Source of the DNA: Thermodesulfovibrio sp. 3907-1M
GTDB lineage: Bacteria; Nitrospirota; Thermodesulfovibrionia; Thermodesulfovibrionales; Thermodesulfovibrionaceae
Assembly (NCBI RefSeq): GCF_040450955.1
Contig: NZ_CP144373.1
Location: 562,001-626,000, forward strand
DNA length: 64,000 nucleotides
Reading direction: 5' to 3'
In this document: in pieces, positions 1-14,901 of the stretch
How the letters are laid out: each line of letters begins with the position of its first letter
How positions within the stretch are numbered: position 1 is the stretch's first letter
Translations under genes and position numbers: made by a program
Notes under the pieces: generated by a model
What the model was told of the DNA's origin: nothing
The model's input: only the letters and a program-made list of their open reading frames with translations
Database searches by the model: none

Positions 1-460
1 CAATCCATTGAGCTGTAAGTTCTCCTTTTGTATGCGGGCTTGTGGAAATTATTACTTCCTGAATTTGTCCTGTTTTAACTCTATCTTCAAGCTCTTTTAT
101 TTTCAATTTATCTGGAGTTAATCCATCAACAGGAGATATGTTTCCTCCAAGAACATGATATGTCCCCTTATATCCAGTTTTTTCAAATAAAATTATGTTG
201 CTTGGTTCTTCCACTACACAGATTATTGAATGGTCTCTTTCAGGATTACTACATATGTTGCACTTTTCATTTTCTGTTATGTTAAAGCAGATTGGGCAGT
301 ATTTAGCATTTTTTTTCAGATTTATAATTGCCTGTGCAATCTCAGTAGCTTCGTTTTCCTGCATACTCATTATAAAAAAAGCAAGTCTCTGAGCAGTCTT
401 TCTACCAATTCCTGGAAGTTTGCAGAGATTATCAATGAGTTTTTCTATGGGATTGCTCAT
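1..460 (-). CDS. recR: Recombination protein RecR (3' end outside window)
   Basis: RecR works with RecO and RecF to load RecA on gapped DNA. The visible 153 residues show a helix-hairpin-helix (LCKLPGIGRKTAQRL, about 12-26), a Cys4 zinc site (C55, C58, C67, C70) and the start of the Toprim domain (CVVEEP from about 81). The family is about 200 residues long, so roughly 45 C-terminal residues lie beyond base 1. The ATG overlaps the ybaB stop as ATGA, which implies translational coupling. The order SRP RNA-dnaX-ybaB-recR is the one found in Bacillus and many other bacteria. Confidence 0.95.
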   Translation of the reverse strand, partial: MSNPIEKLIDNLCKLPGIGRKTAQRLAFFIMSMQENEATEIAQAIINLKKNAKYCPICFNITENEKCNICSNPERDHSIICVVEEPSNIILFEKTGYKGTYHVLGGNISPVDGLTPDKLKIKELEDRVKTGQIQEVIISTSPHTKGELTAQWI

Positions 461-801
461 AATTTACCAAAAAGACTGGTTAAATCAGGCATTCCTGGAA
501 GATTAAAAGGCATGGAAACTTTAGCCATCTCAGCCTGTGCAAGCTCATGGGCTCTTTTTAATGCTTCATTCACAGCAGCAAGGATTAAATCTTCAAGCAT
601 TTCTACATCATCAGGATTTACAACCTCTTTATCAATTTTTATTGAAATAATCTCTCCTGCTCCATTTGCTTGAGCAGTAACCATTCCTCCACCTGCTGTT
701 GCTTCAACTGTCATTCTTTTTATTTCTTCTTGTTTTTTCTGAATCTGTTCCTGAATTTTTTGTGCCTGTCTCATTATCTCACCAAACATTTTCTTAGACA
801 T
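457..801 (-). CDS. ybaB: YbaB/EbfC nucleoid-associated protein
   Basis: Small dimeric DNA-binding protein of 114 residues, the normal family length. An N-terminal charged helix (about 5-35, rich in K, Q and E) is followed by a sheet region containing GGGMVTAQANGAGEI and the conserved stretch VVNPDDVEMLEDLILAAVNE. It overlaps the dnaX stop by 8 bp and the recR start by 3 bp, so the three genes are read as one unit. The role is structural DNA binding near the replication and repair genes; its exact function is not settled for the family. Confidence 0.93.
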   Translation of the reverse strand: MSKKMFGEIMRQAQKIQEQIQKKQEEIKRMTVEATAGGGMVTAQANGAGEIISIKIDKEVVNPDDVEMLEDLILAAVNEALKRAHELAQAEMAKVSMPFNLPGMPDLTSLFGKL

Positions 802-2377
802 CTTCTCCTCCTTTTTTGGGTATTATATTAAAAATTCTTCCATCAAAAAGTTGTAGAGTCTTTTTAACAAGAGGATGATTAATTATTTCATCCGTTAAAT
901 TTTCTCTTGACTTCTGCGTACTTAAATCTTTCAGAGTCTTTATAGTTATCTTACCATCAAATCCTGATTCTTTCAACAAATTTTGAATTTCTGTAAGATT
1001 TTCCTTCACAGAGTCAGCATACAGAGAAGCACCACCGTTGTAAATCAACTGGATTTCATCATTTTCAAAATTAACTTTAGCATGCCTAATTTTCATGGCG
1101 AGTAAATGATTCTGAGTTTCAAGTTTTTCAAGAAATTTTTGCCAGATTGCTTCCTTGCTCTGAGATGTTATTTTATGAGAAGTTTCTGCTTCCTCGGGTG
1201 AATGCTTGATAGGTTGAATTAAAGATGTTTGAAGCTTTGTATTTCCCTGAGAAGTGTAAAATTTTTTCACCTCTTTTATGGCTTCATCAATATTTTTGAA
1301 GTGAGACAGAAAGCTGAGCTTAAGGAGGGTTATTTCAAAAATAATTCTCGGAAAAAAGGAGTTTTTTATTGCAAATTCAGAATTAATTAATTCCTTAAGC
1401 AGAAGCACCAGATGTTCTTCAGATGTTTTTTTACTCAGATTTTCAATTAATTCGGACTCTGATTCAGTTATGTATAGTTTGAAATTTTTTGTAATTTTAC
1501 TGATAAGGGTGTTTCTTAAAAATTGGATTAAATCATTAGTCAGCCGCTTGAAATCAGTGCCAGTGCTGTTGAGTTCTTCTACTTTTAAGACAATTTTTTC
1601 TTTATCACCATCAATTAAGGATTCAGTTAGCTCATAAAGTATTTTTATATCAGTTCCACCAATTAATAAATTTACATCCTCCTGCGTTACTTTATCTGTG
1701 AATGAGGTTACCTGGTCAAGCATTGTTAAAGCATCTCTCATACTTCCTTCAGCATTTACGCTTAGTGTGTAGAGTGCTTCTTCTGTGATATCTATGTTTT
1801 CCTTCCTGCAAATAAAATGGAGTCTCTGTTTTATTAAATTAACCGGAATTCTTCTGAATTGAAGATGCTGACATCTGCTTAGAACAGTTAAAGGAATTTT
1901 TCTTGGCTCAGTTGTTGCCAGAACAAATACCACATGTGGAGGTGGTTCTTCCAATGTTTTAAGAAAGGCATTAAAAGCTGATTGGCTGAGCATATGAGCT
2001 TCGTCGATTATGTAAACCTTATAAAATCCTTCTGCTGAAGCATACCTGATATTTTCTCTTAAATCTCTGATATTTTCCACTGAAGTATGAGATGCAGCAT
2101 CTATTTCTATCACACTCATTGCCCTGCCTTCTTTTATAGCAGTGCAGGAGGGACATTCGTCACAGGGTTTGTTTTGAGAATCTGTGCAGTTTAGCGCTTT
2201 AGCAAGAATTCTTGCTGTTGATGTTTTACCAACTCCTTTAGGACCTGAAAAAATATAGGCATGAGAAATTTTGCCTGTTTTTAATGAATTTTCAAGTATC
2301 TTTACAACCACTTCTTGCCCTGTAAGATCAGAGAATTTTTGAGGTCTATATTTCCTTGCCAGTCCAAGATATGCCAT
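794..2377 (-). CDS. dnaX: DNA polymerase III subunit gamma/tau
   Basis: AAA+ clamp-loader ATPase. It shows the RPQKFSDLTGQ N-terminus, Walker A GPKGVGKTST (45-54), a zinc module of C64, C72, C75 and C78, Walker B IIDEAH (123-128), and the sensor stretch LSRCQ. The 527-residue length is intermediate, so a short tau-like C-terminal part is present after about residue 370. The start codon lies 16 bp downstream of the SRP RNA 3' end, and an AAGG just before it may serve as the ribosome site. It is followed by an 8-bp overlap with ybaB. Confidence 0.96.
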   Translation of the reverse strand: MAYLGLARKYRPQKFSDLTGQEVVVKILENSLKTGKISHAYIFSGPKGVGKTSTARILAKALNCTDSQNKPCDECPSCTAIKEGRAMSVIEIDAASHTSVENIRDLRENIRYASAEGFYKVYIIDEAHMLSQSAFNAFLKTLEEPPPHVVFVLATTEPRKIPLTVLSRCQHLQFRRIPVNLIKQRLHFICRKENIDITEEALYTLSVNAEGSMRDALTMLDQVTSFTDKVTQEDVNLLIGGTDIKILYELTESLIDGDKEKIVLKVEELNSTGTDFKRLTNDLIQFLRNTLISKITKNFKLYITESESELIENLSKKTSEEHLVLLLKELINSEFAIKNSFFPRIIFEITLLKLSFLSHFKNIDEAIKEVKKFYTSQGNTKLQTSLIQPIKHSPEEAETSHKITSQSKEAIWQKFLEKLETQNHLLAMKIRHAKVNFENDEIQLIYNGGASLYADSVKENLTEIQNLLKESGFDGKITIKTLKDLSTQKSRENLTDEIINHPLVKKTLQLFDGRIFNIIPKKGGEDV

Positions 2378-2393
2378 TTTTAATCCTTAAAAA

Positions 2394-2491
2394 GGGACCG
2401 ACTTCCTGCGGCACACAGAAAAGAATGTTTACCGTTGCTTCCTTCCGGACCTGGCGGGGTTCACATCTTTCTGTTGCGCAGGGTCGGTCCC
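2394..2491 (-). ncRNA. ffs: Small signal recognition particle RNA (4.5S type)
   Basis: The minus strand carries the diagnostic SRP core CCAGGTCCGGAAGGAAGCA within a long hairpin. Its outer arms are GGGACCGAC and GTCGGTCCC (bases 2491-2483 and 2402-2394), giving a molecule of about 98 nt. A T5 run follows the closing stem and can act as a terminator. The gene sits directly upstream of dnaX, the arrangement seen for scr-dnaX in Bacillus. Unusually, the upstream topA reading frame does not stop before this RNA and ends inside it, at 2429. Confidence 0.93.
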
Positions 2492-4798
2492 AGCCGAGTT
2501 TTCATTTATTTTTATTTTACATTTACAGGCTTTGTTATGGCAAATTAAAAATTCTTCACCCTTTTTGTCTTTCTTTTTCAACATATACGGAAACTTACAT
2601 TCTGGACATTCCACTGCAACTGGTTCAGTGGGAAGTGTGAATTTACATTCTGGATAATTGGAACAAGCCCAAAAACTTGTCCCTTTTTTAGTTTGTTTTT
2701 TTAAAATGTCTCCACCACATTCAGGGCATTTTATCTCAGCAGTGATTGGTTGAGTATATTTACATTGTGGATATCTTGAGCAAGCAATAAATTCTCCTCT
2801 TTTACCATTTCTAATGACAAGTAGAGCTCCGCATTCTGGACAGACTTTGTCTGTAGCTTTGATTTCATTGGCATTGTTATTATTGTTCAATGATTTGGTG
2901 TTTCTACATGCAGGATAACCAGAACATGCTAAAAATGGTAAGCCTTTGCTCCATCTTATAACCATGTCTTTACCACATTTTTCACATTTTACTTCTGTCT
3001 TAATGTCTTTTGGTTTTGTTCTTTTGCCAATTTTTAAAGCTTCTTCAAGGTCTTTTTCAAACTCTCTATAAAATTCTTCAACGACTTTATCCCATTTCAC
3101 TTCATTTAGAGAAATTTTATCAAGATGTTCCTCCATTTTTGCAGTAAAATTATAATCCATAAGATCAGGAAACTTTTCTTCAAGCAGGTCATTTACAACA
3201 AAACCAAGATATGTAGGATAAAGCCTTGTCTTGATTTTTTTTACATAACCTCTTTCCTGAATTGTACTTAGTATTGTGGCATAAGTAGAGGGTCTGCCAA
3301 TGCCTTTTTCTTCAAGAGCTTTAACAAGGGTTGCTTCTGTATATCTTGGTGGAGGCTCTGTCGTATGTTGTTCTGATTCAATTTCAATAAGTTTTAACGG
3401 GGTTTTTTCTTCCAGCAAAGGTAATAAACTGTCCTGTTGAGTTTCTTCATCTTTATAGAGAATGAGAAATCCTGGGAAAACAACAACTGAACCACTTGCT
3501 CTGAAATGTGCAATATTCATTGAAGTTTGAACATTAAACTTTGAATCATCCGAAGACTGTATGGTGTCTTCAATTATGTATGTGGTTTGCTCAATCACTG
3601 CTTCTGCCATCTGACTTGCGAGAAATCTATCCCAGATGAGTTTATACAGGGCATACTGCTCCTTTGTGAGATATTTTTTAACCACTTCAGGTGCTTTATC
3701 AGGATAAGTAGGTCTTATGCATTCATGGGCATCCTGTATTGGAGTAGCTGTTTTTTTTGTTTTTTTGCTTTTATCTGTGCCAACGAATTCTTTACCGAAG
3801 TTTTTTTCAATAATTTTTTTTGCCCATTGTTTTGCTTCCTCGGCAATTCTTACGGAATCAGTTCTCATATATGTAATAAGTCCAACTCTGCTACCTTCTA
3901 TATCAATTCCTTCATATAACTGTTGAGCAATCATCATTGTTTTCTTGGGAGAAAAACCCAGCACTGAAGAAGCCTCAGACTGAAGCGTTGCTGTTCTGAA
4001 AGGTTCAGGCGGATTTTTCTTTTTTCTTTTCTTTTCAACTTTGGTAAGTGTATAGTTTAATTGTTTAAGTTCCTGAAGAATTCTCTTGGCATCCTCTTCT
4101 GCAGTGATCAAAAATTTAGCTTTTTCATCTGTTCTGTCGACAACAAGTTTGCCTTTATATTTATATAAATTTGCCTTCAGTTGTTTTCCGCCATCTTCAA
4201 ATTTACCATGTATGGTCCAGTAATCCTCAGGTTGAAATCTAAGAATCTCCTTTTCTCTCTCAACAACCATTCGTAAAGCAACGGATTGCACTCTTCCAGC
4301 ACTTAATCCTTTCTTAACTTTTTTCCAAAGCATTGGACTCAGATTGTAACCCACAAGTCTGTCAAGAATTCTTCTTGCCTGTTGAGAATATACCTTATTT
4401 AAATCTATCTTTGATGGATTTTCAATTGCTGCTTTTACTGCATTCGGTGTAATTTCATGAAATATGGCTCTATAAACTTTTTCATCAGGTGCTTTTATTT
4501 CTTCTGCAATGTGATAGGCTATGGCTTCTCCTTCTCTATCAGGGTCTGTAGCTATGAAAATTTTTTGAGCTTTTTTCGCAGACTCTCTGAGCTCTTTAAT
4601 CAGCTTTTCTTTACCTGGAATTATAATGTATTCAGGTTGAAATCCTCTTTCAATGTCAATGCCAAGCCTGTCCTCTGGAAGATCTTTAATGTGCCCAATA
4701 GATGCTTTTACCTCAAAGTCTTTTCCAACAATTTTATTAATTGTTTTTGCTTTTGCAGGTGATTCAACAATTATAAGGTTTTTTCCTTTCAGTTCCAT
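2429..4798 (-). CDS. topA: DNA topoisomerase I (type IA)
   Basis: Relaxes negative supercoils through a 5'-phosphotyrosine link. Toprim motifs are VESPAKAKTI (11-20) and DPDREGEAIAYH (85-96), and the catalytic tyrosine is Y310 in GLITYMRTDS. Four C-terminal zinc-ribbon modules of the form CxxC...C(x4-5)C lie between about 635 and 765. The 789-residue length is normal. The last 21 or so residues (from about AGTDPAQQKD) are encoded by the 5' half of the SRP RNA gene and do not resemble a topoisomerase domain. The start overlaps the small gene upstream by 10 bp. Confidence 0.95.
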   Translation of the reverse strand: MELKGKNLIIVESPAKAKTINKIVGKDFEVKASIGHIKDLPEDRLGIDIERGFQPEYIIIPGKEKLIKELRESAKKAQKIFIATDPDREGEAIAYHIAEEIKAPDEKVYRAIFHEITPNAVKAAIENPSKIDLNKVYSQQARRILDRLVGYNLSPMLWKKVKKGLSAGRVQSVALRMVVEREKEILRFQPEDYWTIHGKFEDGGKQLKANLYKYKGKLVVDRTDEKAKFLITAEEDAKRILQELKQLNYTLTKVEKKRKKKNPPEPFRTATLQSEASSVLGFSPKKTMMIAQQLYEGIDIEGSRVGLITYMRTDSVRIAEEAKQWAKKIIEKNFGKEFVGTDKSKKTKKTATPIQDAHECIRPTYPDKAPEVVKKYLTKEQYALYKLIWDRFLASQMAEAVIEQTTYIIEDTIQSSDDSKFNVQTSMNIAHFRASGSVVVFPGFLILYKDEETQQDSLLPLLEEKTPLKLIEIESEQHTTEPPPRYTEATLVKALEEKGIGRPSTYATILSTIQERGYVKKIKTRLYPTYLGFVVNDLLEEKFPDLMDYNFTAKMEEHLDKISLNEVKWDKVVEEFYREFEKDLEEALKIGKRTKPKDIKTEVKCEKCGKDMVIRWSKGLPFLACSGYPACRNTKSLNNNNNANEIKATDKVCPECGALLVIRNGKRGEFIACSRYPQCKYTQPITAEIKCPECGGDILKKQTKKGTSFWACSNYPECKFTLPTEPVAVECPECKFPYMLKKKDKKGEEFLICHNKACKCKIKINENSAGTDPAQQKDVNPARSGRKQR
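2514..2543 (-). promoter_or_regulatory. Candidate promoter of the SRP RNA gene, inside topA
   Basis: On the minus strand TTGCCA (2543-2538) is followed after 18 nt by TAAAAT (2519-2514). Transcription would begin about 15-20 nt before the SRP RNA stem. The site lies in the last part of the topA coding sequence, so the RNA need not depend on read-through from topA. Sequence match only. Confidence 0.45.
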
Positions 4799-14775: not shown

Positions 14776-14783
14776 AAAGAATT

Positions 14784-14874
14784 GGAGAGGTGCCGGAGTG
14801 GCCGAACGGGCGCGACTGGAAATCGCGTGTGGGGTCTAAAAGCTCCACCGAGGGTTCAAATCCCTCCCTCTCCG
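14784..14874 (+). tRNA. tRNA-Ser (GGA anticodon)
   Basis: Acceptor arms GGAGAGG and CCTCTCC pair perfectly, with discriminator G. The anticodon stem CGCGA/TCGCG encloses the loop CTGGAAA, giving anticodon GGA for UCC/UCU codons. A long variable arm and the T-loop GGTTCAAATCC are present, as expected of a class II serine tRNA. No CCA is encoded. Confidence 0.95.
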
Positions 14875-14901
14875 TTTATTTTATTTCAGGAGGAAATGTA
14901 A

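Follow-up and report, generated by a model that had tools for sequence, protein, structure and literature searches.

The topA gene of Thermodesulfovibrio runs into the SRP RNA gene which follows it in the same direction, and its stop codon lies inside the RNA. This overrun is real, conserved and unusual. It very probably goes back to an ancestral fusion of topA into the SRP RNA, with a promoter of its own for the RNA and a TopA tail which is tolerated. Most likely, the overlap is a by-product of compact gene packing.

Gene layout

The window is the whole stretch of DNA analyzed, 64,000 nucleotides from Thermodesulfovibrio sp. 3907-1M. The features around the overlap, with their positions in the window, are the following:

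4798-2429, minus strand: topA, DNA topoisomerase I, 789 amino acids (open reading frame, Pfam and 14 of 14 genomes of the genus)
2538..2543, minus strand: predicted -35 element TTGCCA, inside the topA codons I-C-H
2514..2519, minus strand: predicted -10 element TAAAAT, inside topA; TACAAT in three relatives
2392..2491, minus strand: SRP RNA gene, bacterial small type (RF00169, 84.5 bits, E 1.4e-17, compensatory pairs)
2491-2483 paired with 2402-2394, minus strand: basal helix of the SRP RNA (genus alignment, compensatory pairs)
2429..2491, minus strand: overlap of topA and SRP RNA, 63 nt, the TopA tail GTDPAQQKDVNPARSGRKQR-stop and the 5' half of the SRP RNA
2429..2431, minus strand: UAA in the RNA core, the stop of topA
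794..2377, minus strand: dnaX, 17 nt past the last GGUCC of the SRP RNA
457-801, minus strand: ybaB/ebfC-like gene, downstream of dnaX (name by sequence inspection)
2-460, minus strand: recR (name by sequence inspection)

The gene order on this strand is dprA-like (a name taken from reading the sequence), a short open reading frame, topA, SRP RNA, dnaX, ybaB-like and recR. The SRP RNA was detected with cmscan at 2490-2392. It matches the full Rfam model RF00169 (positions 1-97) with 84.5 bits, against a cut-off of 40, and has the conserved apical loop and helix. TopA contains the Toprim and Topoisom_bac domains and three topoisomerase zinc ribbons found in Pfam, as corresponds to a type I DNA topoisomerase.

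The topA frame has no stop ahead of the SRP RNA. It enters the RNA at GGGACC (2491) and finds a UAA 63 nt into the core helix, so 20 TopA residues (GTDPAQQKDVNPARSGRKQR) are templated by the SRP RNA. Read-in would give peptides from GTDPAQQKDVNPAR at the TopA C-terminus. The initial annotation had already described a same-strand overlap with the topA stop inside the RNA; the open reading frame, the Rfam match and the 14 genomes of the genus all agree with it. It had also given about 21 residues for the templated tail: the tail stands, but its size does not, since the overlap (2491-2429) has 20 codons plus the UAA. Ribosomes translating a full-length topA mRNA, if there is one, would pass through SRP RNA sequence.

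Conservation in Thermodesulfovibrio

The genus sample has 16 genomes. The SRP RNA was matched in 14 of them; the two without a match are 56% and 63% complete. The topA frame and the UAA stop are identical in all 14. The closest topA matches outside the source genome, both in Thermodesulfovibrio, have 79% and 77% identity. We looked across the genus for a topA stop upstream of the SRP RNA and found none, which answers the comparison with relatives suggested in the initial annotation. A sequencing error or a missed frameshift is excluded because the same frame and stop are found in 14 genomes. Two species have lost 6 and 9 nt immediately ahead of the SRP RNA, and both keep the frame. We consider an artefact of this kind extremely improbable.

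Two genomes have features of their own. In L092 the SRP RNA has a GGGA apical loop where GGAA is usual, and the topA frame is unchanged. In L090, which is 72% complete, the last zinc ribbon of TopA is deleted or degenerate, yet neither the overlap nor the predicted promoter inside topA is affected.

A predicted promoter inside topA

A consensus scan detects TTGCCA and TAAAAT with a spacing of 18 bp (2543-2514), and transcription is predicted to start near 2507, about 16 nt ahead of GGGACC. The pattern TTGnnn-N16-18-TAnAAT is present at this site in 14 of 14 species and nowhere else in the aligned part of topA, its final 1.5 kb. By this comparative evidence from the 14 species, the SRP RNA would have an ORF-embedded promoter, placed within the upstream coding sequence.

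Synonymous differences were compared with the number expected for each amino acid from its rate in the topA body, counting species as independent. The body has a ratio of 1.0. The ratio falls to 0.10 in codons -41 to -36, which contain the -35 box, and to 0.32 in codons -32 to -28, which contain the -10 box. It is 1.19 in the spacer, 0.98 upstream of the promoter and 0.83 between the -10 box and the SRP RNA. For the whole stretch from -41 to -28 it is 0.36; none of 443 windows in the body is that low, the minimum being 0.70. Codon -30 may encode V, G, C, Y or F, and its third base, with which the -10 box begins, is always T. The codon after it encodes T in place of K in three species, where the -10 box is still present as TACAAT.

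This comparison shows selection on the putative promoter. There is strong comparative evidence that it is used, and we infer that it is active. The conservation of synonymous sites around the -35 box could be due in part to the conserved codons of the zinc ribbon. A general effect is disfavoured, because the spacer varies freely. The promoter-like pair pointed out in the initial annotation is thus upheld: all 14 species have the motif, which occurs only once in the topA alignment, and synonymous changes are locally lost there.

Which gene sets the sequence of the overlap

In the topA body, pi at the first, second and third codon positions is 0.19, 0.14 and 0.46. In the overlap the values are 0.03, 0.06 and 0.06. 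The excess at third positions is gone, and protein-level constraint on the TopA tail was rejected. In the genus alignment, four RNA pairs have changes on both sides (columns 15-96, 19-90, 29-78 and 35-70). RNA changes which preserve pairing show up in TopA as amino-acid substitutions: D to E, A to T, K to R, and V/A. Judged from these substitution patterns, the sequence of the overlap is shown to be set by the SRP RNA and not by the TopA protein. The TopA tail of 20 residues is probably inert.

Proposed explanation and alternatives

We propose that in the ancestor of the genus topA would have arrived directly upstream of an SRP RNA-dnaX unit. It would have lost its own stop, read 63 nt into the RNA and ended at a UAA which was present there beforehand. 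Most SRP RNA would be made from a sigma-70-type promoter of its own, which lies within the final 40 codons of topA, and the stem-loop of the RNA would fold independently of topA translation. Full-length topA mRNA would also hold the RNA sequence, and ribosomes on it would translate the 5' half of the RNA. The basic tail of 20 residues would be a tolerated extension of TopA, with a sequence dictated by the RNA.

The genes are co-oriented and tightly packed, with the start of dnaX 10-25 nt past the SRP RNA. This would also suit an SRP RNA which is mainly excised from a topA-SRP-dnaX transcript; each excision would remove the topA stop and leave a non-stop mRNA, linking the outputs of TopA and SRP RNA. 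We find this quite unlikely: A conserved promoter just ahead of the RNA would be unnecessary, and a short 5' leader has to be trimmed under either model. It also seems unlikely to us that a transcript on which the topA tail is translated cannot at the same time have its SRP RNA folded or excised, and vice versa, so that the output of TopA and that of SRP RNA (or dnaX) are physically coupled.

The overlap might instead be a regulatory device, in which ribosomes stopping in the middle of the SRP RNA would block its folding and alter downstream termination or the translation of dnaX. The retention of the overlap in 14 of 14 genomes would be in line with this, as would the U-rich sequence after the 3' end of the RNA. 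This end is also partly complementary to the Shine-Dalgarno region of dnaX in most species of the genus (CCUU..AAGG type; 2396-2383, minus strand, for the two together). On the other hand, short and variable U tracts speak against it, as do alternative hairpins near the dnaX Shine-Dalgarno which have only -1.3 to -7.6 kcal/mol and are not uniform; retention may only mean that the overlap is hard to reverse, because the promoter sits in topA. A regulatory hairpin at this site was rejected as weak and uneven, and we regard a regulatory device as very unlikely. Packing rather than regulation is what presumably keeps the overlap.

Other genera

The SRP RNA is present in 162 of the 176 genomes of the order. 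In the sister-genus loci we have read, dnaX follows the SRP RNA and topA is never upstream. Upstream of the RNA there is either a tRNA (often the 3' end of tRNA-Ser) or non-coding DNA, unlike in Thermodesulfovibrio, where topA is upstream and overlaps. In the window, tRNA-Ser(GGA) is found at 14783-14875 on the plus strand, at a distance of 12 kb from the SRP RNA; several sister genera have a tRNA-Ser 3' end immediately ahead of the RNA, in the place taken here by topA. TopA of other Nitrospirota ends at about residue 770 of the protein in the window, ahead of the RNA-templated tail. The strict SRP core was absent from the DNA fetched for the other 78 topA loci.

A stop triplet is found at the position of the topA stop in 82 of 84 distinct SRP RNAs from outside the genus, and 75 of the 84 are open in the topA frame over the 19 codons before it. 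Any gene in this frame whose stop was lost a short way ahead of the RNA would therefore be ended by it. Comparison of these sequences indicates that the SRP RNA was pre-adapted to end an incoming frame.

We have also scanned 123 SRP loci of uniform length from outside the genus, mainly Nitrospirota, Desulfobacterota, Bacillota and Campylobacterota (the best 30 loci of each phylum), for same-strand open reading frames which have 60 codons or more and end in the SRP RNA, with the strand set by the conserved core. There were 16 candidates, of which ten cross a tRNA-like stretch; the remaining six are open frames of other kinds. They were rejected as tRNA read-through or unsupported frames; five frames from these scans were compared with Pfam and no family matched. 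No credible coding gene running into the SRP RNA was found among the 123 loci, so the rarity claimed in the initial annotation holds in the sample tested. Within the loci surveyed, the overlap appears confined to the genus. Such overlaps may exist elsewhere at a few percent, because the strand was set by the core and only the best 30 loci per phylum were used. In the literature we searched, mostly open-access papers, no SRP RNA is described as overlapping a coding gene.

Relation to known systems

MicX, DapZ and MicL are small RNAs from the 3' ends of genes with ORF-embedded promoters (PMC9438474). The SRP RNA is similar in being a same-strand RNA at the 3' end of a gene, with a predicted start from a promoter within the coding sequence. 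Unlike these regulatory RNAs, it is an essential structural RNA, and the coding sequence runs into its conserved core. Base-pairing regulation of mRNA targets is not expected of SRP RNA. Borrelia has the order two tRNAs-srp-dnaX-ebfC (PMC9879097), and shares with the window an SRP RNA placed immediately ahead of the dnaX operon. The compact genome of Pelagibacter has a bacterial SRP RNA as well; there the RNA is reported to lie wholly inside its intergenic region (PMC2704228), to which the RNA described here is not confined.

In summary, a conserved protein gene shares one stretch of DNA with a universal structural RNA, both read in the same direction, and this arrangement is fixed across the genus. 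Annotation of this locus should neither trim topA nor drop the SRP RNA. The two genes are a testable pair for how ribosomes and RNA folding share one transcript, and they show a way in which a structural RNA may lend a gene its stop codon.
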